Source: Candidatus Sulfopaludibacter sp. SbA3
GTDB taxonomy: Bacteria > Acidobacteriota > Vicinamibacteria > Vicinamibacterales > UBA2999
Direction: 5' to 3'
NCBI GenBank assembly: GCA_945876205.1
Contig: CAMCNL010000006.1
Span: 1-37,391, forward strand
DNA: 37,391 nt
A program made the translations under genes and the position numbers. Shown piece after piece: positions 10-34,544 of this stretch; positions within the stretch are counted from its first letter, which is position 1; each line of letters opens with the position of its first letter. The notes beneath the pieces were generated by a model, which saw only the letters and a list, made by a program, of their open reading frames with translations, had not been told where the DNA came from and did no database searches.

Positions 10-1470
10 GTGACGTCGCACGAGCCGGGCACGCGGGGGACGCCAGCCGTGCTGTTGACGGGCGCGACCGGCTACGTTGGAGGACGACTCGTGCCCGTCC
101 TCGAAGCCGCGGGTGTTCGGCTTCGCTGTCTCGCGCGGCGTCCGGCCGCGCTCCAGTCACGGGTATCGCCGATGACAGAAGTGGTCGCCGGGGATCTCCT
201 CGATCCGGCGTCCCTCGATCGCGCGCTCGCTGGCATCGACCTGGCCTATTACCTCGTGCACTCCATGGGAGCGCACGGCGACTACCTCGAGAAAGATCGG
301 GTTGCCGCCCGTCATTTTGGCGACGCGGCGCGACGAGCGGGGGTCCGGCGGATCGTGTACCTCGGTGGCCTCGCCACCCTTGAAGAGGCGCTCAGCAAGC
401 ATCTCAGGAGCCGAATCGAGACGGGCGAGGTGCTGAGAGAGAGCGGCGTCCCTGTCGTGGAGTTCCGGGCCTCGGTCGTAGTCGGGTCTGGCAGCCTCTC
501 GTTCGAGCTCATCCGCGCGCTCGTCGAGCGCCTGCCGGTGATGATCTGCCCGCGGTGGGTGTCTACGTTGGCACAGCCAATCGGTATCGACGACGTGCTC
601 GCGTATCTTGCGGCCGCGCTCTACCTGCCTGAGGGCGACAGCCGCACGTTCGAAATCGGTGGCGCCGATCAGGCGAGCTACGGCGACCTGATGCGGGAGT
701 ACGCACGGCAACGCGGGTTGAGGCGCGTCATGATCTCGGTTCCGTTTCTGACTCCTCGTCTGTCGAGCCTGTGGCTGGGACTGGTGACGCCCGTCTATGC
801 ACGGGTCGGGCGCGAACTGATCGAGGGGCTGAAGAACAAGTCCGTGGTCACTGATCCCTCGGCACTCTCGGTATTCGCCATCAGGCCCGTCGGTCTGCGG
901 GAGGCGGTCGGTCGCGCCATTCGCCACGAGGATCGTGCGTTCGCGTTGACGCGCTGGTCCGATGCGCGCTCCTCGGGTGGGGATCCGCAATCGTCGGCCG
1001 CGGCGCGATTCGGCAACAAACTGGTCGATGCGCGGCGGACTCACGTGGCGGTCGGCGCGAGCCGGGCGTTCGCTCCCATCGCGGGAATTGGGGGCGAGCG
1101 CGGTTGGTACTACGCCACCTGGCTGTGGCGACTCAGAGGCGCGATCGACCTCCTGATGGGCGGCGTGGGGATGCGGCGGGGACGCCGCGATCCGGACGCG
1201 CTCGCCGTTGGCGACACGCTCGATTTCTGGCGTGTCGATGCCTACGAACCGGGACGACGATTGAGGCTCTCGGCGGAGATGAGAGTGCCGGGCCGCGCCT
1301 GGCTCGAGTTCGACGTCGAGCCGGATGCCGACGGGGCCATCGTCCACCAGACCGCCGTGTTCGAACCAGTCGGATTGTCCGGCTTGCTCTACTGGTATGC
1401 GCTCTCCCCGGTTCATGCGGTGATCTTTGGAGGCTTGCTGCGCGCGATCGCCAGGCGAGCGTCAGCGTAG
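10..1470 (+). CDS. NAD(P)-binding SDR-type oxidoreductase with C-terminal DUF2867 domain
   Basis: A Rossmann-fold protein of 486 aa, predicted cytosolic. The N-terminus has the dinucleotide-binding loop 'LLTGATGYVGGRL' (GxxGxxG, about residues 15-30). The nucleotide-sugar-epimerase-like fold runs to about residue 290. The last ~170 residues, ending '...VIFGGLLRAIARRASA', fit DUF2867, a domain often fused to such reductases. The GTG start at position 10 is the first available and lies at the window edge, so the true start could be further upstream. It is followed 9 bases later by the DUF1295 gene and then an SRPBCC gene. Related genes co-occur in clusters for modified lipids or stress responses in other bacteria, but the substrate here is unknown. 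Fold assignment is firm; specific function is not. Confidence 0.85.
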   Translation: MTSHEPGTRGTPAVLLTGATGYVGGRLVPVLEAAGVRLRCLARRPAALQSRVSPMTEVVAGDLLDPASLDRALAGIDLAYYLVHSMGAHGDYLEKDRVAARHFGDAARRAGVRRIVYLGGLATLEEALSKHLRSRIETGEVLRESGVPVVEFRASVVVGSGSLSFELIRALVERLPVMICPRWVSTLAQPIGIDDVLAYLAAALYLPEGDSRTFEIGGADQASYGDLMREYARQRGLRRVMISVPFLTPRLSSLWLGLVTPVYARVGRELIEGLKNKSVVTDPSALSVFAIRPVGLREAVGRAIRHEDRAFALTRWSDARSSGGDPQSSAAARFGNKLVDARRTHVAVGASRAFAPIAGIGGERGWYYATWLWRLRGAIDLLMGGVGMRRGRRDPDALAVGDTLDFWRVDAYEPGRRLRLSAEMRVPGRAWLEFDVEPDADGAIVHQTAVFEPVGLSGLLYWYALSPVHAVIFGGLLRAIARRASA

Positions 1471-1479
1471 GATGCGTTG

Positions 1480-2271
1480 ATGGCGACAGGCGTGATGACG
1501 GCGCTCGTCGGGCTGGTCACCCTCCTCACGGTCCTGACCCTGGCGTGGATGCTCAGCCTGAGGCGTCGCGATGCGAGCATCGCGGACGTCTGCTGGGGCC
1601 TGGGCTTCGTGCTCCTGGCGTGGGTGTACTGTCTTCTGTCGCCGTCGCTGACACGGCGGTCCTGGCTGGTCGCGTCGCTGATCACGCTGTGGGGAGCGCG
1701 GCTCTCGGTACACATTTTTCGCCGCAACCATGGCAAAGGCGAGGACCCGCGTTATCAGACCATGCGCGCCGCGCATGGACGGGCCTTCTGGTGGCGCAGC
1801 CTGTTCACGGTCTTCTGGCTGCAGGGCGCGCTCCTGTGGTGTGTCGCCCTTCCGCTGCTGGTCGCGGTGCGCGCCACCCAGCCCGTCGCGCTGACCGCGG
1901 TCGATGGCCTTGGGGTCGTGCTATTCGCGGTCGGGTTCGGCTTCGAGGTCGTCGGCGACTATCAGCTCGAGCGCTTCACGACGCAGCCGGAGAATCGCGG
2001 CAGGGTGCTCGACACGGGGCTGTGGCGCTACACCCGCCATCCGAACTACTTCGGAGACGCGACGCTGTGGTGGGGCATCTATGCCATGGCTGCGTCGACG
2101 CCAGGTGGCTGGACGACGTTTCTCAGCCCCGCTCTGATGCTGCTGCTCTTGATGCGTGTGTCCGGCGCGACGCTGCTCGAGGACGGCCTGAAGGCCTCGA
2201 AACCCGGCTACCGCGCCTACATCACCCGCACGCCTGCCTTCTTCCCATGGTTTCCGCGCGCTCCGAGGTGA
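1480..2271 (+). CDS. DUF1295 membrane protein (steroid 5-alpha-reductase/ICMT-like fold)
   Basis: An integral membrane protein of 263 aa with about six hydrophobic segments. The C-terminal signature 'RYTRHPNYFGDATLWWG' (about residues 185-201) is the conserved cofactor-binding region shared by DUF1295, isoprenylcysteine methyltransferases and steroid 5-alpha-reductases. Such proteins are usually reductases or methyltransferases acting on a membrane-embedded lipid. A TTG sits one codon upstream at 1477, but the ATG at 1480 is the better start. The gene lies 9 bases after the DUF2867 gene, and its TGA overlaps a GTG start of the SRPBCC frame (GTGA), which indicates one operon and coupled translation. 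The exact reaction cannot be stated. Confidence 0.85.
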   Translation: MATGVMTALVGLVTLLTVLTLAWMLSLRRRDASIADVCWGLGFVLLAWVYCLLSPSLTRRSWLVASLITLWGARLSVHIFRRNHGKGEDPRYQTMRAAHGRAFWWRSLFTVFWLQGALLWCVALPLLVAVRATQPVALTAVDGLGVVLFAVGFGFEVVGDYQLERFTTQPENRGRVLDTGLWRYTRHPNYFGDATLWWGIYAMAASTPGGWTTFLSPALMLLLLMRVSGATLLEDGLKASKPGYRAYITRTPAFFPWFPRAPR

Positions 2272-2660
2272 GGGTCACGATCGAAACCATCGAGATGCAC
2301 CGCACCACCTTCGTCGCACGCACCCGCATTTCCGCCACGACCGACGCGGTGTTCGACTGGCACGAAGCGCCGGGGGCATTCGAGCGGCTCACGCCGCCCT
2401 GGGAACGGGTGCGCGTGCTGTCTCACGAAGGCGGCATCCGTGACGGCGCCCGGCACCGCATGATTCCCCAGGGCTCGCACGCCTGCGTCCTGGAAGACAT
2501 GATCGAGTACGAATTGCCGCTCGGCACCATCGGCCGGCTGTTCGGTGGACCGTTCGTGCGGAGGAAATTGCAGCGGCTGTTCACGTATCGTCATGCCGTC
2601 ACGCGCCGGGCGTTTGAGGGACCAGAGCAGGGTCAATCGCCGGCACGGGCACGCGAATGA
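2268..2660 (+). pseudogene. SRPBCC/polyketide-cyclase-like protein with internal deletion
   Basis: The frame reads like the SRPBCC family often found with DUF1295 and SDR genes: 'AFERLTPPWERVRVL' near the start and 'LEDMIEYELPLG...GGPFVRRKLQRLFTYRH' near the end. Intact relatives, from memory of the family, have roughly 45-50 more residues between 'GGIRDGAR' and 'HRMIPQG', covering strands that line the hydrophobic pocket. Here the two blocks are joined directly and in frame. The C-terminus trails into an Arg/Pro-rich tail. The start could be GTG 2268, overlapping the upstream stop, or ATG 2295. A collapsed binding pocket makes function doubtful, so I call it a probable pseudogene; a shortened but folded protein is not excluded. 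Confidence 0.6.
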
Positions 2661-2719
2661 CATTCCGCGGGAGCGCAGACTCGGCGCGCGCGAGCGACGC
2701 TCTCGGAGAGGACGGGATT

Positions 2720-3349
2720 CTACTGAGCGCGTCGAAAGTGCTCGGTGGTGGTGCTGGGAGCGACCTTCATCGTCTTCATCTTCTTGATGTATTCGGGATA
2801 GAGGGTTTCCTCGCCGCCCAGCGCAGCCTCGAGCGGTATCCCGTATTCGGTCGCACACTCGCTCAGCACGTCGTTCTTGCCGGGCAGAAAGCTTGGCACC
2901 TTGCCCGCTGGAACGATGGTTCCTTCCGGAGTGATTTCACACGGGTATGGGGGGATGACCTGGTTGGGATCGGCGATCCAGCTGGATTCGCGAATGTACG
3001 GCGCGGTCAGATAGGCCGGGTCGTTGATGATGAAGACGATCGTCAGGAGATTCCCGTACCGGTGAATCCGCGTCGTCACGGTGGCCGTCAAGCCTGCGTC
3101 GCTCAGTTGCTGGGGCGCGGCGCCTTCGATGATCCAGATCGCCTCCACGACCGTGTCGCTCATCGCGGCTATGCCGGAGTCGACCAACAGGACGCCGTCC
3201 CGGCCGACCTGCACCGTGATGTTGCCGCCCGCTCCCGCGAGCATCCTGACATTGCCTTGGACGGGCAACAGTTCGAGGGCGGGGCCCTGGGTCGACCCCG
3301 ATACCCCAAGGAAAACGAGTAGCGACGCGATGCACGCGAACCGCCGCAT
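2720..3349 (-). CDS. Chimeric exported protein: MBL-fold N-terminus fused to the C-terminus of a secreted 'LYPEY' family
   Basis: 209 aa from the ATG at 3349; an upstream in-frame start at 3406 would put residues before the signal peptide. Residues 1-22 look like a signal peptide. About residues 24-70 ('LPVQGNVRMLAGAGGN', 'GVLLVDSG') match the first strands of metallo-beta-lactamase-fold proteins, as in the gene at 35367-36392. About residues 88-200 ('IVFIINDPAYLTAPYIRES', 'FLPGKND', 'GGEETLYPEYIKKMK') match the C-terminal half of the unrelated secreted family seen at 36389-37285. The metal-binding HxHxDH block is absent, so it cannot be an active MBL enzyme. It lies divergent from the hydrolase pair with 55 bases between start codons. 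It may be a remnant or a stable fusion; the reading frame is open throughout. Confidence 0.7.
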   Translation of the reverse strand: MRRFACIASLLVFLGVSGSTQGPALELLPVQGNVRMLAGAGGNITVQVGRDGVLLVDSGIAAMSDTVVEAIWIIEGAAPQQLSDAGLTATVTTRIHRYGNLLTIVFIINDPAYLTAPYIRESSWIADPNQVIPPYPCEITPEGTIVPAGKVPSFLPGKNDVLSECATEYGIPLEAALGGEETLYPEYIKKMKTMKVAPSTTTEHFRRAQ

Positions 3350-4179: not shown

Positions 4180-5037
4180 ATGGATCCGATGAGACGCAAG
4201 ATACTGAAGGGTGGCGCCGCGGCGACGGCCATCGCCGCCGCCGCGAAAGGCGTGTTTGCGCAGCAGGCCGGCCCAGCGGGACCTGCCCCGACCTTCTTCG
4301 AGAAAGGCGGAGTCAAGATCCGCTACGAGGACACCGGCGGCTCCGGCTTCCCGTTATTGGCCATCTCTGGCGGCGGACTGAATTCGTCGGTTGCCGGCTT
4401 GCGCACCTCGCCGTTCAATCCGCTCGAGGAGTTCAAGGGCGAGTACCGCGTCATCGGCGCCGACCTGCGCAACGCCAACACGGGCCTCTCCACCGGCCCG
4501 CTCGACGTCGATCGGCCGTGGGATACGCACACCGACGATCAGCTCGCGCTGATGGATCACCTGCGCATCGACAAGTTCATGGTGGTCGGTTTCTGCATCG
4601 GCGGTCCCTTCATCTGGAACCTGTTGAAGCGCGCACCGAATCGTGTGGTGGCCGCCGTGCCGGCACAGCCGGTTGGCTTCAGGCCGGAGATGCCCACCGT
4701 GCTCTATGACGGCAGCATGGCCGGTTGGGGGCCCGAGCTGGTCAAGCGCCGGTCCGACATCACGATGGCGATGATCGAGAGATACCTGACCCGGATGTAT
4801 CGCACCAACCCCGACTTCGTCTTCACCGTGACGCGCGATTTCGTGAAGAGCTGCCAGACGCCCGTGCTGATCATGCCGGACGATGTGCCCGCGCATCCGT
4901 TCGCCGTCGCCATGGAATGCGCGATGCTCGCGCCGAAGGCCGAAGTGAGCATGTACCCGTGGAAGGAGCCGAAGGAGCGAATTCCCCTGGCGGTACGCCA
5001 GATCCATTCGTTCCTGAAAGCGCATCGCCCTGTGTAG
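4180..5037 (+). CDS. Alpha/beta-fold hydrolase with Cys nucleophile elbow and twin-arginine leader
   Basis: 285 aa, tandem paralogue of the gene at 3405-4160, 19 bases downstream on the same strand. The first ~29 residues contain 'MRRKILKGGAAATAIAAAA', a twin-arginine-type export signal followed by an Ala-rich hydrophobic stretch and 'VFAQQ', a likely cleavage site. The mature part aligns along its length with the upstream protein: 'FPLLAISGGGLN', 'VVGFCIGGPFI' (Cys nucleophile elbow, GxCxGG) and 'PVLIMPDDVPAHP'. A purine-rich 'GAAAGGA' stretch precedes the ATG. It probably performs the same chemistry as its neighbour but outside the cytoplasm after folding inside. The substrate is unknown. 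Confidence 0.87.
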   Translation: MDPMRRKILKGGAAATAIAAAAKGVFAQQAGPAGPAPTFFEKGGVKIRYEDTGGSGFPLLAISGGGLNSSVAGLRTSPFNPLEEFKGEYRVIGADLRNANTGLSTGPLDVDRPWDTHTDDQLALMDHLRIDKFMVVGFCIGGPFIWNLLKRAPNRVVAAVPAQPVGFRPEMPTVLYDGSMAGWGPELVKRRSDITMAMIERYLTRMYRTNPDFVFTVTRDFVKSCQTPVLIMPDDVPAHPFAVAMECAMLAPKAEVSMYPWKEPKERIPLAVRQIHSFLKAHRPV

Positions 5038-5039
5038 CC

Positions 5040-5064
5040 CGCGGAGGCGCCACGCGCCTCCGCG
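5040..5064. terminator. Strong hairpin between convergent genes
   Basis: An 11-bp perfect inverted repeat (CGCGGAGGCGC / GCGCCTCCGCG) with a 3-base loop lies between the stop codons of the hydrolase (5037) and the convergent beta-propeller gene (5077). There is no T-run on either side, so it may stop both transcripts only with help, for example from Rho. Confidence 0.6.
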
Positions 5065-5076
5065 ATCTCGTTTGCG

Positions 5077-6411
5077 CTACGGCAGCCGCGAGAGCTGCTC
5101 GAGAAGCTTCCCTCGCGCGCTGTCGGACGGGACCAGCCGCTGCACGCGTTCGCCCTGAAAGACCTCGCCCGTGTAGATGTTGCCACGCGAATCGGTGGCG
5201 GCCAGTTCCAGGCCGTAGAATTGCCCCCCGCTCTCCCCCATGCTCCCGTAGCGGCCGACAGTGGTGCCGTCGGCGCGGTTCACGAACCAGATCGTGTTGT
5301 TCTTCATGTCGGAGACGTAGAGGAACTTCTGATCCTTGTCGGCGGAGAACGTCACGCCTCCCGCCGCGCCACGGCTGCCAGTGCGCTCATCACGTCTGGT
5401 CCCCGAGGGGGCGACGACGAATTCCTTCACGAACTTCCCTTCTCGAGTGAACGCCTGGACACGTTCCGCCGCACGATCCGCGGCATACACCATCCCGTCG
5501 CGCGAGACGGCCACCACCAGGTGCGACTGAAAATCTTTCGGCGGCGTGGTGCCCACCCACTGGTGGTCGGCGGGATCCGTCGAGATGTCCGCGAGCTTCT
5601 TCCCGTAGGCGCCCCAGCCGCGCTTGAATGCCAGGGTGGTGAGGTCGAACACGAGCACGCGTCCGCCAAGATAGTTCTCGGCGACATAGATTTCGTTGTG
5701 CGCTTCGTCGACACGCACTTCCTCGGTGGTGCCGACCATCATCGGCGTGGACGGAGGGTACTTCGCGTAGAACCCCGCCAGCTTCTTCATCTCCGCGGCC
5801 TCCAGCGCCACCGGGTTGTACCCCGGTCCGTGCGGCGGCAGCAGAAAGCGCGTAATCGGCGCGGGATTGCCCTGCCCCGGCACACGCGGCGCGATTGCCG
5901 CCGCCTGGTTCGGCCCGCCGCCAACGCGCTCGGGGATGCGGGGAATCTCACCAACCAGCTTGCCGGTCCGCGTGTCGTACTTCCGGACGGTGTCCTGGCC
6001 GAGATACGCGAACCCGCGGTCGTCGACGTCCATGCCGTGTCCCTGCGGCGCGTCGAACGAGCCCAGCACGCTCCCGTCTTTACCGAGGTGGATCATCGCC
6101 GGGGCGCGCACGCAGCAATCGGAGACGCCGACCTCCGCTTCGAGCTCGAGGCTCGTCAGGTCGGTCGGCCGCTGGTAGACCCAGACGTTGTCGTCCTTGT
6201 CGATCCCCAGCCCGATGACGCCGCCGATCTTCCATTTGTTCGGCAGCGGCTTCGGCCAGTCGGGGTCGAACTTGTAGCGCGGCGCGTTCGAGCCTGCCCC
6301 GAGCGAAGTCGAGGGGCCCTGCGCCCCCACTCCAACGAACAGCCCCGCCGCACTCAGCACAACGGCAAGAACGACGGCGCTCACACGCACGCGATCAGCA
6401 TTCTTCTTCAT
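5077..6411 (-). CDS. Exported NHL/6-bladed beta-propeller protein
   Basis: 444 aa with an N-terminal signal peptide (about residues 1-31, ending 'VGVGAQG'). The rest holds repeated propeller motifs: 'GVIGLGIDKDDNVWVYQRP', 'GHGMDVDDRGFAYLGQDTVRKYD', 'VDEAHNEIYVAENYLGGRVLVFD', 'VVAVSRDGMVYAADRAAERVQ' and 'GLELAATDSRGNIYTGEV'. This pattern fits NHL-repeat proteins of the peptidyl-hydroxyglycine amidating-lyase-like group, common in Acidobacteria, usually without known substrate. Just after the signal peptide, 'GPSTSLGAG' is encoded by a dispersed repeat element inserted in frame. GGAGA lies 6 bases upstream of the ATG. Periplasmic location is likely; function is unknown. Confidence 0.85.
   Translation of the reverse strand: MKKNADRVRVSAVVLAVVLSAAGLFVGVGAQGPSTSLGAGSNAPRYKFDPDWPKPLPNKWKIGGVIGLGIDKDDNVWVYQRPTDLTSLELEAEVGVSDCCVRAPAMIHLGKDGSVLGSFDAPQGHGMDVDDRGFAYLGQDTVRKYDTRTGKLVGEIPRIPERVGGGPNQAAAIAPRVPGQGNPAPITRFLLPPHGPGYNPVALEAAEMKKLAGFYAKYPPSTPMMVGTTEEVRVDEAHNEIYVAENYLGGRVLVFDLTTLAFKRGWGAYGKKLADISTDPADHQWVGTTPPKDFQSHLVVAVSRDGMVYAADRAAERVQAFTREGKFVKEFVVAPSGTRRDERTGSRGAAGGVTFSADKDQKFLYVSDMKNNTIWFVNRADGTTVGRYGSMGESGGQFYGLELAATDSRGNIYTGEVFQGERVQRLVPSDSARGKLLEQLSRLP
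6291..6320. repeat. Short dispersed repeat inserted in frame in the beta-propeller gene
   Basis: The segment contains GAGCGAAGTCGAGG. Its opposite-strand reading gives 'CPERSRG', a hallmark of short repeats scattered through many bacterial genomes. On the coding strand it gives 'STSLGAG' in the linker after the signal peptide, keeping the frame. Confidence 0.65.
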
Positions 6412-7093: not shown

Positions 7094-7151
7094 GCCCCGC
7101 CGCGAAGCGGCTATGGCGGGCATCCTTCACGCGCATCAAGAGCGAAGGATG
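7094..7151. repeat. Palindromic repeats downstream of tRNA-Ser
   Basis: Two adjacent inverted repeats. GCCGC-GAA-GCGGC (7099-7111) is nested in GC-rich arms (7094-7121). CATCCTTC (7121-7128) pairs with GAAGGATG (7144-7151), touching the encoded CCA end of the tRNA. It could mark the 3' end of the tRNA transcript or be a dispersed repeat. Confidence 0.4.
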
Positions 7152-7239
7152 GCGGAGAGGGCGAGATTCGAACTCGCGGTAGAGTTTCCCCTACAACAGT
7201 TTTCGAGACTGCCGCCTTCAACCACTCGGCCACCTCTCC
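7150..7239 (-). tRNA. tRNA-Ser (anticodon CGA)
   Basis: On the minus strand the acceptor arm GGAGAGG (7239-7233) pairs with CCTCTCC (7160-7154), followed by discriminator G and an encoded CCA. The D-arm has 'GCCGAGTGGTTGAAGGC'. The anticodon stem GCAGT/ACTGT encloses loop CTCGAAA, giving anticodon CGA for UCG codons. A long variable arm (serine class II) and the T-loop 'GTTCGAATC' follow. The gene begins 28 bases after the stop codon of the last secreted protein of the large operon, on the same strand and without an obvious terminator, so it may be partly co-transcribed. Confidence 0.97.
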
Positions 7240-7267: not shown

Positions 7268-8119
7268 TTACTTGGCCTTGCTCTCGACTTCCTTCAGCTT
7301 GTTGAGTTCCTCGACGTCCTTGTTGTTGTCGCAGTAGAACTCGTAAACCTCGCCGTTGCCCAGCGTCCAGCGGCGGTTGGCCGACTTCCAGGGCTTGGTC
7401 AGCACCTTCGGGTCCTCGACCGTGATCTGGACGAACAGGTAGTTCATCGACGGCCGGGTGTAGCGTTCGGTGACCTTCAGCTCGTCGCTGTGGAACCAGC
7501 CGTTCGGCATGATGTAGGTGCGATCGTCGAACGCCACCGACTCGACGACGAACGTGTCGCCGTCCCAGCGCGTCGTGCTGTTGCCGTGAAACCAGGGCTC
7601 CGGGCTCTTGGGCACCGGCCGTCCGTCGGTGTGGATGAGGCGCCAGTTGTTCAGCACCTCGTAGAGCTGCGCCATCATCGCCGGCGTGTGCACGATGACG
7701 GTCGAATACGGATTCTGCAGCCAGATCGCCGGCACGCCGCGCGGCATGCAGTTCACCGACGACTTGGCCAGCTCCTTCTCCGTCTCCGTCATGCTCTTGA
7801 TTTTTGCCTCGGCCCACGGCTGGAACGAAGGCGGCTCCTCCGGGTTCGCGCGGCGATCGAACTGGCCGAGCGCAGCCGGATCGACGCCGAAGCGGCCGCT
7901 CACGCCCTGGCCCGCGCCATTGGGCAGCCAGTGGCCCGACAAGTCAGGATGGCCATCCGCGAGCTTCGGCGCCGGGCCGCCGGGCGGCAACGGCTTGATC
8001 AGGTATTCGGTCGGCTTGGCCGCCTGTGTCTGGGCGCCGACGGAGGTCGACAGGACGCCGGTGAGCGCCACCGCCGTCGCGCACGCAATGCTGTAGCGAA
8101 GATGAAGTGTCATGGTCAT
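7268..8119 (-). CDS. Secreted PDLSGVW-family protein (module 3)
   Basis: 283 aa with a signal peptide (about residues 1-29, ending 'STSVGAQ'). The mature start carries 'GGPAPKLADGHPDLSGHWLP'. Other conserved blocks are 'PPSFQPWAEAKIKSM', 'NCMPRGVPAIWL', 'WDGDTFVVESVAFDDRTYI', 'WFHSDELKVTERYTRPS' and 'VQITVEDPKVLTKPW'. The gene at 16508-17365 is a full-length paralogue and 11975-12760 a more distant one. I know the family only as secreted proteins of unknown function in Acidobacteria. It follows its DUF6152 gene with TAG and ATG directly abutting, so the two are translated together. It is the last protein gene of the operon. A role in handling a receptor ligand in the periplasm or at the surface is inference. 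Confidence 0.8.
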   Translation of the reverse strand: MTMTLHLRYSIACATAVALTGVLSTSVGAQTQAAKPTEYLIKPLPPGGPAPKLADGHPDLSGHWLPNGAGQGVSGRFGVDPAALGQFDRRANPEEPPSFQPWAEAKIKSMTETEKELAKSSVNCMPRGVPAIWLQNPYSTVIVHTPAMMAQLYEVLNNWRLIHTDGRPVPKSPEPWFHGNSTTRWDGDTFVVESVAFDDRTYIMPNGWFHSDELKVTERYTRPSMNYLFVQITVEDPKVLTKPWKSANRRWTLGNGEVYEFYCDNNKDVEELNKLKEVESKAK

Positions 8120-8539: not shown

Positions 8540-11500
8540 CTAGAAGCCGTACTTGATGGCGAACTGCATGATGCGCGGGTCGCCCACCTGGGTGGTGATG
8601 CGGCCGAAGGTCCCTGCATCCAGGCTGGTGTTGGGATCGCCCCAGTTGACATTGTTGGTCAGGTTGAACGCCTCGACGCGAAGCTCCACGGTCCGCTGGG
8701 CCGAGACGTTGATCACCCGCGCGATCGACATGTCGACCTTCCAGAATCCCGGCCCTTCGATACTCCGGGCCGCTTCGTTACCGTAGGTCCCGCTGGCGGG
8801 GAACGCAAACGCTGCCGGGTTGAGGAAGTTGGTGAGTGACTTGTCGCCGTACGGATTCTCGCTGACCTGGTTCACGCGCTGCGAGGGAATGCCGGTGAAC
8901 GCGATATCTCTCGTCGTCGTCACGGTCAGCCAGCTTCCCGTGTTGGCGGTGACGATGCCCGAGACGCGCCAGTTGGAGGCGATGACGCGCAGCGCCGAGT
9001 TGGAGAACTGCGGCGTCAGGTACCCGGCCGTCCAGTTCGAGATGATGCGCTGGTTGTACGGGCAGTTGCCACGCTCGTAGGAGGGATCGCCGGGCTTGAG
9101 CCACGTGTTCTGGAACTGCACGAAGTTGCCGGTGACCGGCGTATCGGTCTCGCAGTGCGACACGGTGTAGTTGCCGCCGAGCGTGAGACCGTTGGCGCCA
9201 CGGCGCTGGAACGACAGCTTCAAGCCGCGATACGCCTGCGTGCCGATCGCCCGGTACTGCGATACGTACGAGTATTTCTGGGCCGCCTCGGCGCTCACCT
9301 GCGAGAAGACGCGCCGCGCATCGGTGTTCGCGGTCGTCGAGCAGACCGGATACGACACGCCGCGGATCGTGCAGGGGCCGAGGCCCATGTAAACGCCGGG
9401 ATTGAGCGCATCCTGGCCCCAGATGCGATCGAGGTAGGTGCCCAGGTAGCTCGCCGCCACCTGCCACGTCGACCCGAGCTGCTTCTCGAGGGTGACGTTC
9501 CACGACTGGCCGCGCGTCGAGTTGATGTTCGGATCGATCGCCGCGTACGAACCCTGGTTCGGAAACACGACGTTGACCGGAGGTGGCACCGCAACCGGCA
9601 GGACGTGCGCGCCGGGATAGTTGCGGTACGGATCGTCGAGCGGGATGTTGCCGGCCTGGGTCAACGCGAGCCGGTTGCCGAACGGCGCGCCCGACGCGGG
9701 CACCTGCTGGAAGATCGCGGTCGGGATGTCGTAGTTGACGGCGTACGACGAGCGAACGGCGAGACGACCGTTGCCGCTGACGTCCCACGCGAGCCCGAGA
9801 CGCGGCGAGAAGTTCTTCCACTGCTTGTTCAACCCGGTGTTGCCCTTGGGGAAGCCGGCGTCGCCGGGATAGAGCAGGCCGGGAGGCGCGTTCACGAACT
9901 GCGTGCTGCGGATGCCCTTGGCGAAGTTGTCGGGGGAGAAGTTCGAGATCGCGCCGTTCTTCGACCAGGTGCCGAAGTAGGGCTCCCAGCGAAGGCCGAC
10001 ATTCAGCGTCAGCCGCTCGGCCGCGCGCCACGAGTCCTGCCCGTAGACGCCGTTGTACCACTGATAGTTGTGCAGGATGCTTGGCGTCCCGTGGGTCAAG
10101 GTCGAGACCTGGCCGACAAGAAAGTCGGCGAGGCCGATGCCGGTGACGCTGCCGTTGATCGCGAAGTTGCCCGCGGCATTCGCGTAGTCGAAGGAGTCGA
10201 GCGTCGCGTAGGCGATGTTCACGCCGGCCGACAACTGGTGCCGGCCCCAGACTTTCGAGAAGTCGTCCTGGATCTGATACGCGCGGTTGTCGACGACACC
10301 GGCCACCGAGCTTCCACCCGAGAAGGAGAAGCCGTTGGTCACGGAGAGCGCCATCACGCCAGGCACATAGGTGTAGATGGGGATGCCGAGCGAGGGGGCG
10401 TCGAAGAACTCGTCCGCCGGCGCGTTGGAGCGCGTGGACGTCCGGACGTAGGTGGCGCGGATCGCGTTGACGGTGCTCGAGCCGAACACCTGCGTGTCGC
10501 CAAGGGCGAGTGTCTGCGCCTTCTTGCGGCTCTTCGGTCCGAAGATGTTCCGGATCGCGAGGATGTTGTGCGTGCGCTCGAGCGTCGCCGGGCGCGCCTC
10601 AATGTGATTCAGGTAGCGTCCAAAGATCGAGTGGTTGCCGTTCAACTGAAAGTCGATCCGCGCCACGCCCTGCCCGTTGTTGTCGTCGAGCGGCACGCTG
10701 TAGCGGATTTCGCCGCACTGATCGTCCGACTTGGGAATGAAGCCGGAGTTGATGATCTTCAGCGCCGCCGGGCTGTACTGGGCGGGACTCACCCGGTTGT
10801 TCACGAACGGCGCGCGCAGCGTGACCTGCCGGCCGGCGTTGCATGCGGGCGACGCGGCGGCCGTGAAGTCGCCGGCGAGCATCGCCGCAGTCGGCACGAA
10901 GGCGACGTTGTCGTTGGACAACTGCCGGGCGCGCGTGCGCTGGTAGGCGCCGAAGAAAAAGAGCTTGTCGCGCAAGATGGGACCACCGAGCGTGCCGCCG
11001 AACTGGTTGCGGTTGAGGCCGTCCTTCTGCTTCTTGCCGTCGGCGCCAACCGGCGCGAAGTACGCCGGCGCGTTGAACCGGCTGTCGCGCAGGAACTCGA
11101 AGGCGTTGCCGTGCAGGCTGTTGGTACCCGACTTGGTCACCGCGTTCACCGACGCCGCCGAGTGCATGCCGTTGGACGCCGACTGGCCGCTGGTGGCGAC
11201 GCTGAACTCCTGCAGCGCGTCCGGAAACGGAAACGGCAGGTTGGTGTTGTCGTAGAAGTCACTGTTGAGAGCGCCGTCAAGCGTGTACGAGACGCCGGTG
11301 CGCAGTCCGCCCGCCACCGAGATCGCGACGCCGTCGTTGCGATTCAGGTTCGACAGGACCTTGCCGGTGTTGACCGCCGACCCCGCCAGCATGATCAGGT
11401 CGGTGACATTGCGGCCCTGCAGCGGCAGTTGGACGATCTGCTCCTGCTGCACGACCTGGCTGATGCCGGCGCTGCGGACGTCGACCAGCGGCGCGGCGGC

Positions 11501-28149: not shown

Positions 28150-29352
28150 GTGAGCAGCGTCGTCAACACCTCCGGATCCCGCCTGCACCTCGACGGCGCC
28201 GGCGACGCGACGGCGCCGAGCCGCGTACTGACGACGCGCTTTCTCGACTTCTGGCTGCTGGGCGGCGCGAGCATCCTCGTATGGCTGGTGATGATCGCCG
28301 TGCAGGGATTCAGGGCGAGCTGGGCCGTCGATCAGCATTTCAAGAACCTGACGGTCACCACCGCCTCGCTCTCGCTGCTCGTCAACTACCCGCACTTCCT
28401 GATTTCGTACAAGCTGGCGTACAGCCGCGGGCGCGGGTTCATCTTCCGCAACTGGTGGCAGCTCATCGCCGTGCCGTTGCTGATGACGGCGACGTTCGCG
28501 ATCGCCTACTTCTATTTCGCCGTGCCGGTTGGCAATCTGCCGATGGTGGCGACGCTCCAGAGCGCGCTCTCGCCGTGGGGCGCGAACGCGGGCGTGGTCG
28601 CGGGACCGCGGCTCGGCGACGTGCTCTTCACCGCCGTCTTCAACCTGATGATCTTCACCGTCGGCTGGCATTACACCAAGCAGGTCTTCGGCTGCATGAT
28701 GGTCTACGCGCATTTCGACGGCTACACGATGACGAAGCCGCAGCGCGATCTCACCAAGTGGGGGCTGCTCAGCATCTGGGGGATGAACTTCGTCTACAGC
28801 AACATCAGTGGATCGGAGAGCATCTTCTCGAACTTCAGGTACCACACGCTCGATCTACCCGACATCGCCGGACCGATCTCGCTCATGGCCGTCGCCGCCG
28901 GCTTCCTGCTCGTCGTCTACAAGGTGTTCTACGTCAACTACCGGGACAGCAGACAGGTGCCCAGCCTGAACCTGCTGGCGCCGTTCGTCGCGCTCTACAT
29001 CTGGTGGCTGCCGCAGACGCGGCAGTATGAGTTCTACTTCCTGCTGACGCCGCTCTTTCACTCGCTGCAGTACCTGGCGTTCGTCTACAAGATGGAAGAC
29101 ACACGCCTCAAGAAAGTCCACAACCGCGAGGTCCAGGCCACCGCCGTGATCGTCGGCGCCGTGTTAGCCGGCTGGCTGTTCTTCGAGTTCCTGCCCAACA
29201 CCGTCGACAACGTGCTCGGCACCTACAACTCGTGGCAGATGTTCTTCTTCTTCACCGCCGCGATGCTGTTCATCAACATCCATCACTACTTCATCGACAA
29301 CGTCCTCTGGCGTTTCCGCGACCCCGAAGTCCGCGAATATCTGCTCGCGTAG
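28150..29352 (+). CDS. Polytopic membrane protein of unknown function
   Basis: 400 aa with roughly nine to ten hydrophobic segments, from 'FWLLGGASILVWLVMIAV' to 'MFFFFTAAMLFINIHHYFID'. His residues recur at membrane borders: 'LVNYPHFLISYKLAY', 'FTVGWHYTKQVFGCMMVYAHF', 'FHSLQYLAFVYKM' and the C-terminal 'NIHHYFIDNVLWRFRDPEVR'. The spacing resembles di-iron membrane oxidases or desaturases only loosely, so I do not assign one. The start is GTG with a TAGACT hexamer 6 bases before it. It may be co-transcribed with the upstream hydrolase (62-base gap) or read from its own promoter. Confidence 0.8.
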   Translation: MSSVVNTSGSRLHLDGAGDATAPSRVLTTRFLDFWLLGGASILVWLVMIAVQGFRASWAVDQHFKNLTVTTASLSLLVNYPHFLISYKLAYSRGRGFIFRNWWQLIAVPLLMTATFAIAYFYFAVPVGNLPMVATLQSALSPWGANAGVVAGPRLGDVLFTAVFNLMIFTVGWHYTKQVFGCMMVYAHFDGYTMTKPQRDLTKWGLLSIWGMNFVYSNISGSESIFSNFRYHTLDLPDIAGPISLMAVAAGFLLVVYKVFYVNYRDSRQVPSLNLLAPFVALYIWWLPQTRQYEFYFLLTPLFHSLQYLAFVYKMEDTRLKKVHNREVQATAVIVGAVLAGWLFFEFLPNTVDNVLGTYNSWQMFFFFTAAMLFINIHHYFIDNVLWRFRDPEVREYLLA

Positions 29353-29409: not shown

Positions 29410-29430
29410 CGCGGACCTTCACGGTCCGCG
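29410..29430. terminator. Perfect 8-bp hairpin downstream of the membrane protein
   Basis: CGCGGACC and GGTCCGCG enclose loop TTCAC, 57 bases after the stop at 29352. AAAG follows but no T-run, so it is only a possible terminator. The stem sequence is nearly that of the real terminator at 31498-31518 on the other side of the island. Confidence 0.4.
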
Positions 29431-29483: not shown

Positions 29484-29632
29484 ACCGCGTCCTGACGACG
29501 CCGGGCATCTCGCTCCGACTCGGCGGCTCGGCACGCCCACCGAGAGTCGTGACGTCCCAGCCTTCGTTGCCGCACCTGTTCTCCGGCGACCGAGTCCACC
29601 TCGCTCCGCGAGACACCCGACGCCGCAGGCCG
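29484..29632 (-). repeat. ~145-bp imperfect palindrome, copy A
   Basis: Read on the minus strand it aligns with copy B at 31344-31487. Shared blocks include CCTGCGGCGTCGGGTGT, CTCGGTCGCCGGAGAAC and GGGCGTGCCGAGCCG. The element is itself palindromic: its outer arms (about 29487-29512 and 29607-29630) pair, and within the core block mismatches are of the kind that become G-U pairs in minus-strand RNA. It marks the left edge of the lower-GC segment. No coding capacity is apparent. Confidence 0.8.
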
Positions 29633-29702
29633 CTGGAGAATCGTCCAATCTCGGGATGGCGAAGACCCTATCACTCGTTGTCCTGCAGCGACCAAGGCTC
29701 GT

Positions 29703-29882
29703 GAAATCACATTCACGGAGCAGGAATTTCTGGTCGCCGTACGCGATGCGGCAAGCCTTCTTTCGCAAACGTCGGCCATTTTTGCCTCCCTGTTCACCTT
29801 CGCAGCACTCGGAGCGTGGCTGCTGTGGGCAATCCCCGTCTTCGCGTTCAGTATTCTGGTCGAAGGGTCAGTCGGCGCCTAG
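29703..29882 (+). pseudogene. Protein-like reading frame without start codon
   Basis: The frame ending at TAG 29880-29882 reads 'EITFTEQEFLVAVRDAASLL', then a hydrophobic stretch 'AIFASLFTFAALGAWLLWAI', then 'LVEGSVGA'. Its composition is that of a real small membrane protein with one or two transmembrane segments. There is no ATG, GTG or TTG in frame. Upstream the frame runs into palindrome copy A. I read it as the 3' part of a gene cut by that element. The family is not recognised. Confidence 0.35.
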
Positions 29883-30086
29883 GTTGTCCTGATCGTCCAC
29901 ATCAATCACATGGGCGACCGCGTCGTTCGCCAGCAGAAGGCGTTGCAGCGCCCATGTCAGGTGAGCCGGGAAACGAACCCGTCAGCGTGCGAAGCGACAA
30001 AGACATGCCGATGTTGCGATGGTCAGAGCCAGCAGCAGGCAAGTGAGAGCGACGGACGTTCGCCCACTTCTGGTCCAATCCGAATC
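29868..30086 (-). pseudogene. Degraded small exported-protein frame with internal TGA
   Basis: On the minus strand one frame gives 'VALTCLLLALTIATSACL' (like a signal peptide with lipobox-like end), then 'CRFAR', a TGA (29979-29981 region), then 'RVRFPAHLTWALQRLLLAND' and 'AVAHVIDVDDQDNLGAD'. No usable start codon is in frame; the nearest ATG (in 'MRFGLDQKWANVRR') is in another frame, which suggests a further frameshift. It overlaps the end of the opposite-strand frame at 29882 by 15 bases. Probably a decayed gene. Confidence 0.3.
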
Positions 30087-30156
30087 TCATGCTTGTTCCG
30101 AGCAGGACGTTTCGACATGCTTGAATCGATTTCCGACTCTCGTGGCTTGAGGCGGT

Positions 30157-30258
30157 CACGCGTTGGGCGATCCTGTAAAAGAACAACCAGATCCGTGTCA
30201 CAGAATGCAGGATCAGAGGTCTGGATCCGCTTCTACGCTTTGAGGTTCTGGATTGGCC
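30157..30258. other. Non-coding 3' region with nested inverted repeats
   Basis: CGCGTTGGGC (30159-30168) pairs with GCCCTAACGCG (30256-30266, with one bulged base). GATCCTG (30169-30175) pairs with CAGGATC (30208-30214). It follows the stop of the split gene on the minus strand and could fold as its 3' end. No gene is seen. Confidence 0.3.
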
Positions 30259-31008
30259 CTAACGCGCGGAGTTGTGCTCCGAGTGCATGAACAGCGTGTA
30301 CTCAACGTCGGTGCCGGCGGGGTTCTTGGCAGTGCGCGGATTGGCTGGGTCACCGAGCACATTCGTGATCCGGTAGCAAAACCTAACCTCGTGGACCAGT
30401 CCCGCCGGATCGAACACATCGGCATAGCCAGCCGTGCCCCAGACGTAAACATGTCGACTGCCGTTCTTCACCGCCACCAGGTCGCTAGCTGGAATAACCC
30501 CGGTGGCAGCACTAAGGTGCCCATGCGGCCCTATGACTACGGGGGCCATGGACTCTGAATAGGAAAAATCGAAGCCTGCGGGCAACGGAGTTGTACGAAC
30601 CTCGTACTCAACCACTAACCTCATGTCGACGGTAGGCGTCGCGCCACTGTTCTCCAAAATCGGCGTGACTCTGTATTCGATGTTGGTTGGGGTGCCATCT
30701 GGTAGATCGTCCCATCGCATGCTCTGATGGAAACCTTGGACGTGGACAAACGGTCGCTGCACTGCAACCAGCGATTCGTCAGCAGTTCCCGCGCTCTCGA
30801 CGGCGGCGTCGGCCGCCTTGCGCGTTTCGGCCAGTCCGTCTCGCATGTACTCCGACTGCTTGTCGGCGGCGTCGCGCTGGCCAGTCATGATCGTGTTTTG
30901 CCTCTCGATGATGGCGTTCTGGCGTGAGGCTATTCGGACTTGGAACGCGATGGCTGCCAACTGCAGCGTGCCGAGAATGGCGGTCGCGATGGCAAGCCAG
31001 CGGGTCAG
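30259..31008 (-). pseudogene. Membrane-anchored hypothetical protein, 3' part of a split gene
   Basis: 249 codons if read from CTG 31008, which overlaps the TGA of the upstream frame. The first normal start in frame is TTG 30960, but that would delete half of the only transmembrane segment 'RWLAIATAILGTLQLAAIAF'. After it comes a charged coiled region 'QRDAADKQSEYMRDGLAETR', then a beta-rich domain from 'VQRPFVHVQGF' to 'CYRITNVLGDP'. In relatives I remember, the upstream piece ('DLRGTDASPLIVNVRP...') and this piece form one protein. A -1 frameshift here would restore that fusion. Base composition is lower in GC than its surroundings, which suggests acquisition. Function unknown. Confidence 0.6.
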
Positions 31009-31247
31009 GCAGCAGACTCCTGCTCCTTCTCGCGTTGTTCTCTGGTTGCTTCGTCGTCAGTCTGCGGGGTTGGTCGTACGTTGACGATCAGTGGTGAGGC
31101 GTCAGTACCACGCAGGTCAACGGGTGGCACCTGTTGAATGCGGATGCTCTCGGGCTGAGGTGGCTGTGTCTGCGCGAACGCACACGCACCTACTGAGAGC
31201 AGCAGCGTAACCGTCGAGAAGCTACGGGACGCCCAACCGTGGATCAC
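31005..31247 (-). pseudogene. 5' part of the split gene, with signal peptide
   Basis: 80 aa from GTG 31247 (TTG 31250 is also possible). Residues ~8-25 ('SFSTVTLLLSVGACAFA') look like a signal peptide, followed by a Pro/Gln-rich stretch and 'VDLRGTDASPLIVNVRPTPQ', then a Glu/Arg-rich helix. The frame ends at TGA 31005-31007, one base out of register with the downstream transmembrane part. Standing alone it would be a short exported peptide, but the composition fits the periplasmic N-terminus of the next frame. Confidence 0.55.
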
Positions 31248-31297
31248 CAAGCCTCACCTCGCTGTCGATCAGATATTGGACGCTGCCGAAGGATGAG

Positions 31298-31303
31298 ATT
31301 GTA
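31298..31303 (-). promoter_or_regulatory. Possible -10 element (TACAAT) for the split gene
   Basis: TACAAT on the minus strand lies about 50 bases upstream of the GTG at 31247. The -35 region falls just outside palindrome copy B and is not recognisable. Confidence 0.35.
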
Positions 31304-31343
31304 CGGCTAGTAAGGCGGGTGCGGTGCACCACGACACGGTTCG

Positions 31344-31487
31344 GCGTCCTGCGGCGTCGGGTGTTTGCGCAGCGAGCCGGTCTCGGTCGCCGGAGAACCG
31401 GCGCTACAACCGAGCCTCGGGCCTAGCGCCTCTCGGCGGGCGTGCCGAGCCGGCGAGCGGAGGCAAATACCCGGCGTCGCAGGGCGC
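31344..31487 (+). repeat. ~145-bp imperfect palindrome, copy B
   Basis: Outer arms 31344-31368 and 31463-31487 form a 25-bp helix: 21 Watson-Crick pairs and 4 G-U pairs on the plus strand, no unpaired position. Inner arms (GCCGG, CTCGG, GGCGCTA blocks) continue the pairing with interruptions. The whole aligns with copy A in inverted orientation. It lies between the promoter region of the split gene and the terminator of the receptor operon. Confidence 0.85.
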
Positions 31488-31490
31488 ATC

Positions 31491-31518
31491 AAAAAAAGGC
31501 GGACCCGGAAGGTCCGCC
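31491..31518 (-). terminator. Rho-independent terminator of the second receptor operon
   Basis: On the minus strand GGCGGACC-TTCCG-GGTCCGCC (perfect 8-bp stem) is followed directly by seven T. It lies 90 bases past the receptor stop at 31608. Confidence 0.88.
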
Positions 31519-31607
31519 TCCACGAGCACCGTGCTTAGCCTGTCGGCGCGAGGATGCGCACTCTAGAACAATCGCACCGAATCGCAGACCGACCGCACCG
31601 ACCAGCG
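31519..31607. other. 3' untranslated region of the receptor operon
   Basis: 89 bases between the terminator and the receptor stop codon. No gene or further structure seen. Confidence 0.5.
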
Positions 31608-34544
31608 TCAGAAGTCGAACTGGTAGCCGATCTTCACGAACCGCGCGGGCAGGATGGCGGTCGGGCGGCGGAAGGTGCCGAACGCGGGATTTTCGGTCAG
31701 CACCGTGTTGGCGTTCAGCAGGTTGAACAGATCCAGGTGAATCGTCGACCTGGTGCCGCCGAACCTGAGGTTCTTGCCGATCCGGAGGTCGACCTGGTTC
31801 AGCCGCTCGCCGACGATCGACCATGGTTCGACGATGTTCGCGGTGACATTGGCGGCACCGCCTGAGAGCGGACGGCCGAGCGACGGCTGCACGATCGCAT
31901 TCGCCGCGACAAAGTTGCCGATCACCTGCGATCCGGGCACGCTCTGCACGGTGGTGCTCACCTGCACGTCGATCACCGGCACCGTGTACAACAGCAGCCC
32001 CTTGAACTGTGTCTGCAAGGGCGTCTGTGTTCGGCAGTACGGGTTCACGTCCGCCGTCTCCGGCAGCTTCGCGCGAATCTCGCACGAGTCGGTCGTTCGG
32101 CGGCCGGTGCTCGTGCCGCCCTGGACCGTGAAGCCGGCCCGCGGCCGCAGCGCGAGGCTGACATCAACGCCGTTCCAGTGCTCGATCTGCTTGCCGTAGT
32201 TGTCGGCAAACGTCACGTAGTTGTCGGCCGGGACGCCGAACCTCGAGGGGTTCAGGTTGTAGAGACCGGAGACGGTGTAGCCGCCGCCCCCTGGCAGCCG
32301 CGGATCCGATGGCGCGACGATGCTGAAGGCGTTGTAGTCGGCGGCGCTCACGGCGCGGTTGTCGGTGACGACAAAATTACCGAACAGCCGCCGGAAGTAG
32401 TCGACCGACAGCGAGACGCCGGTGACGAGCTCGTGCTGCACGCCGCCCGAGAATTCCCAGTCGAACGGCCGCTTCCCCCACCCGGTCACCGTGTCCGGGT
32501 CGTAGTTGTTGCCGGGGACCGAGGTGCCGAAGTTGCTGTTGGCCATCGCCGCGCACTCGCCGTTGGCTGCCGGGAGCGTGACGTTGCAATCCGGGATGAA
32601 ATTCCTGTTGGCGTCGGTCCAGGCGCGAGTCGTGGTCTGAACCAGGCGGCTGCCCGGGTTCAGGCCGTCACCAAACGGACCGCTCAGGCCCTGGCCGGCG
32701 ACGTACTTGTTGGCGCTCGCCTTCAGCGCGGTCTTACCGTTGCCGAAGACGTCGTAGGAGACGCCGAGCTTCGGCGTGATGTCCTTCCACGAGATGCCAT
32801 GGGTCGCCGCCAGCGTGAGGCTGCGCGCGGGGACGAGCGGCCCAGGCCCGAGCTGCTGCTCGGGATAGGCGATGGAGATGAAGTCGTAGCGCACGCCGAA
32901 CCCGAGGGTCAGGCGATCGATCGTCCACTTGTCCTGCGCGAAGATGCCGCCGTCGGAGGTGAACGTGCCCGTCAACCGGTAGGGCACCGCCTGCAGGGTG
33001 ATCAGGTTCGGAACCGGCACCCCGGTGGCGGTGTTCAACCGGTAGCTCACTGGCTGATCGGCGGTCGTGAGCCGCTCGATCGTCTGCCGGCCGTTGTTGA
33101 ATCCTGTCTTGAATGCGTGTGATCCGGTGACGTAGGAGAGCGCCGCGCGGTACGAAATGAATCTCGTATCAGTCGTGCCGCCGGTCACGCGATTCCGGTA
33201 GGTCAGCCCGGTGAACTGATCGTTGACCGAGATCATGTTGGGCGTCACACCGGCGCCCGGCCGCGAATCGATCGGCTCGGTGCGCCGCATGATCGTCGAT
33301 TCGAGCAGCACTCGATTCGTCACCGGGGAGGTCCAATCGACGAAGGTGTTGGCCATGCCGGGATACCGCCGATCCTGCCCCGCTTCAGGCGCAGTGGTGG
33401 CCGTCACGCTGCCCAGGCACTGGCACTGGAAGTTGCGGTCGTACATCACGCCGATCTTGTTCTTCGCGTTCGCCTGCCAGGTGATCCGTCCCTGGGCATT
33501 GCCCCACGTGGTCCGGAGTACGGCCGGGCGACTGAGATCCGCCTCGTAGGTCCAGACATCAGGGTTGTTGGCGTTCTTGTTGTAGAACATCCCCGCGACG
33601 CGATTCGCTGCGCCGTTATTGGCGTACGACGAGTAGAACCACAGCTTGTCCCGCTTGATCGGCCCGCCGAGACCGGGATTGAAGCTCCAGTTCTTCTCGA
33701 GGGTGCCGGGCGCGTTCAGGCCGCGGTCCTTCAGGTCCTGCGTGTAGTTGCTGCCTTGCATCGCGCTGTTCGCGTAGGAGGTCACCAGCGTTCCGCTGAA
33801 GGTGTTGCCACCGTCCTTGGGAATCAGGTTGATGCGTATGCCGCCCTGCCCGAGCTCGGCGTTGACCGCGCCGGTGTCAACCGCCACTTCCTGCACGGCG
33901 CCCATGTTGTAGGTGTTGGACGACTTCGCGCCTCCGCTCAGATTGGTGCCGAGCGACACGCCGCCCTGGGTGACGCGCATGTCGTCGCCGCGTCCACCGT
34001 GGATCGACATCGTCTGACCCTGCTGGTTGCCGGCCACGCCGCCGACGTCCTGGCTGCTCGTCGTCACGCCCGGCAGGAGCACTACCAGTGAATAGTGGTT
34101 TCGACTGGTTGGAAGCGCGTCGATCATCTCGGCGGCCAGCACCCGTTCGCGCGTCGTGCTCTGCACGTCCACGACCGGCGCTTCGCCGGTCACGGTGATC
34201 GTCTCCTGCAGCGCGCCAACGCGCAGCTGCGCGTCGATGGTCGCGACAAACGATCCGGTCAGTTCGATACCCTCGCGCTTCACCGTGCTGAAGCCCGGCA
34301 AGGTGAACGTGATGGTGTATGCGCCGGGGCGCAGATCGACGACGCGGTAGCGGCCGGCGCCGTCGGTCACCACGGTGCGGACCTTCTCGATGAGCGCAGG
34401 GCTGGCGGCTTCGACCGTCACGCCGGGGAGCACGCCACCCGATCCGTCCGTGACCGATCCGGCGATGACCGCCTGCGCGTACGCCGCCGCCGGCACAATC
34501 ATCAGAGACCCGAGGAACATCGTCAGAGTTCTCAATGCACGCAT
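31608..34544 (-). CDS. Oar-like TonB-dependent receptor (second operon)
   Basis: 978 aa. Signal peptide about 1-24 ('VPAAAYAQ'). The regulatory domain starts 'VIAGSVTDGSGGVLPGVTVE' (about 25-110). The plug contains 'IDALPTSRNHYSLVVLLPG' and 'GAVQEVAVDTGAVNAELGQG'. The barrel contains 'GGPIKRDKLWFYSSY' and ends '...FVKIGYQFDF' with terminal Phe. It is a different branch from the three receptors at 8.5-21 kb and is about 125 residues shorter. AAGGAG lies upstream of the ATG. It is the last gene of an operon with overlapping upstream cistrons and ends at a clear terminator. Ligand unknown. Confidence 0.92.
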   Translation of the reverse strand: MRALRTLTMFLGSLMIVPAAAYAQAVIAGSVTDGSGGVLPGVTVEAASPALIEKVRTVVTDGAGRYRVVDLRPGAYTITFTLPGFSTVKREGIELTGSFVATIDAQLRVGALQETITVTGEAPVVDVQSTTRERVLAAEMIDALPTSRNHYSLVVLLPGVTTSSQDVGGVAGNQQGQTMSIHGGRGDDMRVTQGGVSLGTNLSGGAKSSNTYNMGAVQEVAVDTGAVNAELGQGGIRINLIPKDGGNTFSGTLVTSYANSAMQGSNYTQDLKDRGLNAPGTLEKNWSFNPGLGGPIKRDKLWFYSSYANNGAANRVAGMFYNKNANNPDVWTYEADLSRPAVLRTTWGNAQGRITWQANAKNKIGVMYDRNFQCQCLGSVTATTAPEAGQDRRYPGMANTFVDWTSPVTNRVLLESTIMRRTEPIDSRPGAGVTPNMISVNDQFTGLTYRNRVTGGTTDTRFISYRAALSYVTGSHAFKTGFNNGRQTIERLTTADQPVSYRLNTATGVPVPNLITLQAVPYRLTGTFTSDGGIFAQDKWTIDRLTLGFGVRYDFISIAYPEQQLGPGPLVPARSLTLAATHGISWKDITPKLGVSYDVFGNGKTALKASANKYVAGQGLSGPFGDGLNPGSRLVQTTTRAWTDANRNFIPDCNVTLPAANGECAAMANSNFGTSVPGNNYDPDTVTGWGKRPFDWEFSGGVQHELVTGVSLSVDYFRRLFGNFVVTDNRAVSAADYNAFSIVAPSDPRLPGGGGYTVSGLYNLNPSRFGVPADNYVTFADNYGKQIEHWNGVDVSLALRPRAGFTVQGGTSTGRRTTDSCEIRAKLPETADVNPYCRTQTPLQTQFKGLLLYTVPVIDVQVSTTVQSVPGSQVIGNFVAANAIVQPSLGRPLSGGAANVTANIVEPWSIVGERLNQVDLRIGKNLRFGGTRSTIHLDLFNLLNANTVLTENPAFGTFRRPTAILPARFVKIGYQFDF

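Follow-up and report, generated by a model that had tools for sequence, protein, structure and literature searches.

Two families of strand-selective hairpins at gene ends, some enclosing accessory DNA, in one acidobacterial family

Results

The hairpin pair and its surroundings

The window (the whole stretch of DNA analysed, 37,391 nt) is contig C6 of a draft genome of 4.06 Mb in 391 contigs, referred to below as the host genome (G000). Two hairpins, A and B, were located between two convergent genes. The features of the region were as follows.

28150..29352, plus strand: left neighbour gene, its 3' end preceding A; orthologous genes in five relatives are followed by different neighbours
29487..29636, model orientation plus: hairpin copy A; better-folding strand minus
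29492..29513, plus: outer stem of A, 5' arm (family 1 alignment columns 2-23)
29608..29629, plus: outer stem of A, 3' arm (family 1 alignment columns 120-141)
29637..31339, no strand: enclosed lower-GC DNA, GC 0.590 vs about 0.65 on either side
30259..31017, minus: open frame of 252 codons, no Pfam, NCBIfam or PADLOC match, one distant homologue in G002
31005..31250, minus: small 81-codon frame that overlaps the 252-codon frame, no family match
31340..31488, model orientation minus: hairpin copy B; better-folding strand plus
31348..31368, minus: outer stem of B, 3' arm (family 1 alignment columns 120-141)
31462..31483, minus: outer stem of B, 5' arm (family 1 alignment columns 2-23)
31495..31521, minus: terminator-like hairpin carrying a T run; lies between B and the right gene
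31608..34544, minus: right neighbour gene, 978 aa, its 3' end preceding B, no NCBIfam match; the product looks like a TonB-dependent receptor

A preliminary description of this DNA had placed two inverted copies at 29484-29632 and 31344-31487, and the alignment bore this out. A and B were about 80% alike in opposite orientation, with a local alignment score of 82, while shuffled segments set against the window scored no higher than 22. The repeat match comprised two segments, 91 nt long at 79% and 21 nt long at 95%. The inverted order of A and B also follows from the convergent neighbour genes, since each copy stands behind the 3' end of the gene next to it. B folded more strongly than its own shuffles (DNA z -3.1), with RNA z values of -3.7 and -8.3 on its two strands. 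The plus strand of A was a poor folder (z -0.2) and its minus strand a good one (RNA z -3.3).

The enclosed 1.7 kb formed the GC minimum of the contig (0.590, all other stretches of equal length showing at least 0.628), in line with the poorer GC remarked on in the preliminary description. The additional statement that only broken or split frames occur there was too strong in view of the 252-codon frame. Third-position GC was 0.70 over a 233-codon part of this frame, and one distant homologue was detected among 161 genomes (G002; 33% identity, E 4e-13). Searches for a phage, plasmid or viral-contig origin gave no match, and terminator-like sites in the region were not more numerous than in shuffles. 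An empty site was sought at the loci of the left-gene orthologues in relatives, where the right gene was downstream in none; as the downstream neighbours differ between these relatives, an empty site was not definable. Other palindromes were present 3' of two orthologues (L072 264-430 in G013 and L073 4215-4280 in G003); their sequence differs from A and their model match was weak or absent. Short GCGGACC..GGTCCGC hairpins occurred just beyond A and B (window 29411-29429 and 31499-31517), and similar ones adjoined the hairpins of genome G012. A tRNA-Ser (CGA) gene was located at 7150-7239 of the window on the minus strand.

Further copies and two hairpin families

In the host genome, DNA searches revealed one more full copy at C124:3838-3982, besides a half copy at C124:11191-11247; among 99 relatives they identified copies in G015 and G016. 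A covariance model, the check proposed in the preliminary description, added a third G015 copy and four copies in direct order in G017. A weak model match led to two palindromes of 131 nt in G012, inverted, 84% alike and with 2.57 kb between them. They had a different sequence and the same build, and represent a second family. Family 1 comprised about 12 copies in four genomes (the host genome, G015 with three, G016, and G017 with four) and family 2 about 13 copies in six genomes (G012, G002, G026, G014, G008 and G003), numbers that are lower bounds because the search scored a limited set of candidates per genome and weak copies were possibly missed. All genomes compared were metagenome-assembled drafts. 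Family 1 matched only 4 of 162 genomes across the whole order, all in one bacterial family, and family 2, at the level of the class, 6 of 193, again confined to the same bacterial family. Together, the two families placed hairpins in nine genomes beyond the host genome. Family 2 included two inverted copies some 1.7 kb from each other on contig C56 of G002 and two near-identical direct copies on contig C99 of G026. Small inverted-repeat inserts were present within copies 1 and 2 of G017 (L036 7728-7826 and 8902-9133), and the insert common to both suggests that one copy was derived from the other after the insertion.

A local inverted duplication, with no family behind it, would account for A and B being alike and inverted. 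It is hardly conceivable in view of the further copies in the host genome and elsewhere. In addition, the C124 copy was nearer to A (86%) and to B (87%) than A was to B (81%), and a local duplication was rejected as the origin of the pair.

Fold, covariation and strand preference

The favoured strand formed an outer stem of 20-25 bp, an internal loop, an inner stem and a terminal region. The internal loop, as read from the folds, held GGA opposite GGA on this strand in most copies of both families; the terminal region was partly conserved in family 2. In family 1, 13 of 38 pairs were changed on both sides (22 cells, which, like the mismatch cells below, are not independent events, the copies being related). 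None of 500 shuffles reached that value, and sliding the partners abolished the signal. Family 2 showed 19-21 pairs changed on both sides vs shuffle maxima of 14-15.

Each of the 18 distinct copies was folded on both strands, and the better-folding strand was the complement of the model orientation in all of them. Transition-type mismatches in family 1 were G-U on the favoured strand in 27 cells vs 4. Counted by columns, G-U-compatible mismatches numbered 13 vs 3 in family 1, where the structure came from the disfavoured strand, and 12 vs 1 in family 2, a count that leans towards the favoured strand on which that structure was derived. Summed over both families, 25 columns vs 4 favoured the better-folding strand. 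The two hairpin families share fold, covariation and strand preference. The G-U compatibility remarked on in the preliminary description is therefore right and family-wide, and the selection for a one-strand hairpin that it proposed is supported in two families. Where it had allowed for a pair with neither further copies nor covariation, the covariance model yielded additional copies with compensatory changes.

Gene-end position and enclosed accessory DNA

The copies were intergenic and mostly situated at gene 3' ends. The model orientation in family 1 was that of the preceding gene, and the favoured strand antisense to it, in 11 of 12 copies; for the C124 half copy, at a contig end, the neighbour gene was read by eye. 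Exceptions in the orientation of family 2 were the right copy of G012 and copy G026a. Four inverted pairs (window, C124, G012 and G002) and two direct sets (G017 and G026) enclosed accessory DNA. Close-set copies were both pairs of the host genome, the four of G017, the two of G012, two of three in G026 and two of five in G002. The probability of such clustering within 7.3 kb under random placement was 5e-5 for the host genome, 8e-5 for G017, 0.003 for G012, 0.009 for G026 and 0.03 for G002. About ten copies were solitary (three each in G015 and G002, C140 of G026, and those of G016, G014, G008 and G003). The GC content between copies was lower in all four measured cases (0.590 vs 0.65, 0.644 vs 0.661, 0.631 vs 0.65-0.66 and 0.577 vs 0.69-0.71). 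Hairpins at gene ends thus enclose accessory DNA above chance. That copies cluster about accessory DNA in five genomes lends support to the possible recombination boundary considered in the preliminary description.

The enclosed DNA of C124 carried toxin-antitoxin genes of the ParE type and PF09720. That of G017 held PemK/MazF, DUF433/DUF5615 and frames with DUF6883 and DUF4926, which we take to be toxin-antitoxin-like, and the direct copies of G026 surrounded a gene with a PIN domain together with a small frame. Two units in G017 with unrelated toxin-antitoxin genes had about 120 nt in common from stop codon to hairpin, the same pattern as in cassettes. Copy C11 of G015, from family 1, and copy G026b, from family 2, stand behind oxidoreductase-like genes that are orthologous and 84% identical; this is a common spot, reached by descent or repeated insertion. 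The C124 enclosed DNA also contained IS110-type and IS30-type transposase genes (L005 6509-7642 and 8165-9118). Near hairpins, attC-like sites were located at L005 (G000:C124) 5016-5085 and 7993-8062, L036 (G017:C106) 9832-9915 and L054 7625-7717, together with the integron-type genes ParE and DUF433/DUF5615.

Discussion

The bottom strand of integron attC sites is the folded, functional strand (PMC2727003). The hairpins resemble attC as imperfect palindromes behind a gene, with an internal unpaired region and one functional folding strand, and in forming sets with toxin-antitoxin genes (G017, G026). A fold selective for one strand was present as well (18 of 18 copies), and in family 1 this strand lay antisense to the preceding gene in 11 of 12 copies. 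However, the outer stem is much longer, the pairs are mostly inverted, and the R'' RYYYAAC and R' GTTRRRY boxes (AAC/GTT), sought at the hairpin foot in aligned copies, were absent. Moreover, no integron integrase was found in the drafts of G015 and G016, which carry four copies. With no R boxes, and with no integrase found in these two drafts, the hairpins are not attC, though alike in strand choice and place. The drafts of G000 and G017 did contain integron integrases, and attC-like sites were detected in the C124 and G017 islands by search and also by eye. Together with the two full integrases of the host genome and the gene-end position and strand choice of family 1, this would fit divergent attC sites or secondary sites used by the IntI of the host's integrons. 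The missing boxes, the two drafts in which no integrase was found, the mostly inverted pairs and the frequency of integrases in the bacterial family regardless of hairpins make this very improbable. Integrases occurred in 28 of 43 genomes of that family, with or without hairpins, and their presence was uninformative as a hairpin predictor. Within the window's enclosed DNA, attC candidates were at about chance level, and the C124 contig carried no integrase.

ERIC and YPAL repeats measure about 130-170 bp, form a single long stem-loop and are intergenic (PMC2267715). The hairpins share these three traits, in a comparison by size and shape only, but differ in sequence, phylum and copy number (1-5 per genome here, tens to hundreds there), and in that their pairs enclose accessory DNA. 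In REP, as opposed to inverted REP, a hairpin that contains an internal mismatch region is used in a strand-specific way (PMC8266576). REP and REPIN are similar to the hairpins in this respect; REP, however, measures 20-50 nt and bears a tag, GTAG or CGTC, whereas single hairpins of 130-150 nt are present here, in which no such tag was recognised. The only Y1 (RAYT-like) transposase found in the host genome, at locus L021, is flanked by GGGGTCAGACCCC-type repeats. The hairpin is absent at this locus, where other repeats stand, and a RAYT association was rejected. MITEs and composite elements have inverted arms and copy pairs around cargo in common with the hairpins. However, edge repeats at 17 copies, whose exact edges are uncertain, were no longer than at random positions, and no autonomous transposon with shared ends or parent transposase was seen in the host draft genome. 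An ordinary MITE, a possibility raised in the preliminary description with target-site duplications as a sign to look for, is thus not supported. More broadly, a self-spreading hairpin repeat of the ERIC, YPAL, REPIN or MITE type, which would be moved by some transposase, might meet accessory DNA in shared tolerant spots at gene ends. The ERIC/YPAL-like build, the intergenic position at gene 3' ends, the many solitary copies and the occurrence of both families behind orthologous genes point in this direction. The very low copy number despite strong clustering, the lack of target-site duplications and of a partner transposase, and the other repeats at the sole RAYT-like locus render it rather unlikely. 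A structured RNA, with the favoured strand transcribed into a long hairpin acting on the neighbouring mRNA or elsewhere, would keep its base pairing through RNA function, and in family 1 it would be antisense to the neighbouring gene. Covariation with a one-strand G-U bias is the classic signature of such an RNA, the conserved internal loop and the partly conserved terminal region of family 2 would suit it, and a one-strand preference is equally expected. Yet the hairpins matched no model in an Rfam search, and a scan of 29.3-31.7 kb, covering the sigma-70 type alone, revealed no promoter-like site. The terminator-like hairpin separates the putative receptor gene from B, the presence is patchy (4 of 162 and 6 of 193 genomes), and the pairing around accessory DNA is left unexplained. 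A structured RNA consequently appears decidedly unlikely.

Our tentative preference, at somewhat less than an even chance, is that the hairpins are recombination or mobile sites used as one folded DNA strand and mark the edges of captured DNA. The elements of about 145 bases would fold on the favoured strand, which for A and B is antisense to the neighbour gene. A strand-specific recombinase or HUH-type transposase could recognise the folded strand whenever it is exposed, as in replication. Copies would then recombine with one another, or a resident copy with one on DNA entering the cell, and accessory genes would come to lie between hairpins at gene 3' ends. We infer that the folded molecule is DNA rather than RNA, that the copies take part in the capture, and that such an enzyme acts on them. 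The established logic of strand-selective hairpins in attC (PMC2727003) and REP (PMC8266576) supports this reading, as do the families themselves, their covariation and strand bias, the clustering, the low-GC accessory cargo and the cassette-like units of G017. Against capture through a folded strand stands the inconsistent company of recombinases and transposases, with a Y2/IS91-type transposase and a tyrosine recombinase at the G026 pair and none in the window. The enclosures are inverted in four of six cases, although direct repeats are what attC-like recombination produces. About ten copies are solitary, the strand preference would fit RNA equally well, and accessory DNA and hairpins could both gather in tolerant intergenic spots. 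The main rivals remaining are the self-spreading ERIC/REPIN-like repeat and the antisense RNA.

Only a handful of known systems read DNA as a folded single strand, among them integron attC, REP/IS200-type elements and some phages. A gene-capture system apart from integrons in one acidobacterial family, with one-strand hairpins of 130-150 nt and a GGA/GGA loop as its sites, is an unlikely but consequential proposal. If true, it would constitute a second cassette-like folded-strand system, with toxin-antitoxin cargo, and this mode of gene movement would be broader than integrons. Should the hairpins turn out to be an antisense RNA or an ERIC-like repeat, the two families would still present a clear and testable example of selection acting on one strand of a bacterial repeat.

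Several recombinase genes were recorded alongside the hairpin survey. The Y2/IS91-type transposase and the tyrosine recombinase adjoining the direct pair of G026 are encoded at L119 (G026:C99) 1096-3194. In the host genome, further tyrosine recombinases below the cut-off for integron integrases were located at G000:C295:2427-3230, C288:103-933 and C352:2693-3514, the one on C295 following a full integron integrase.
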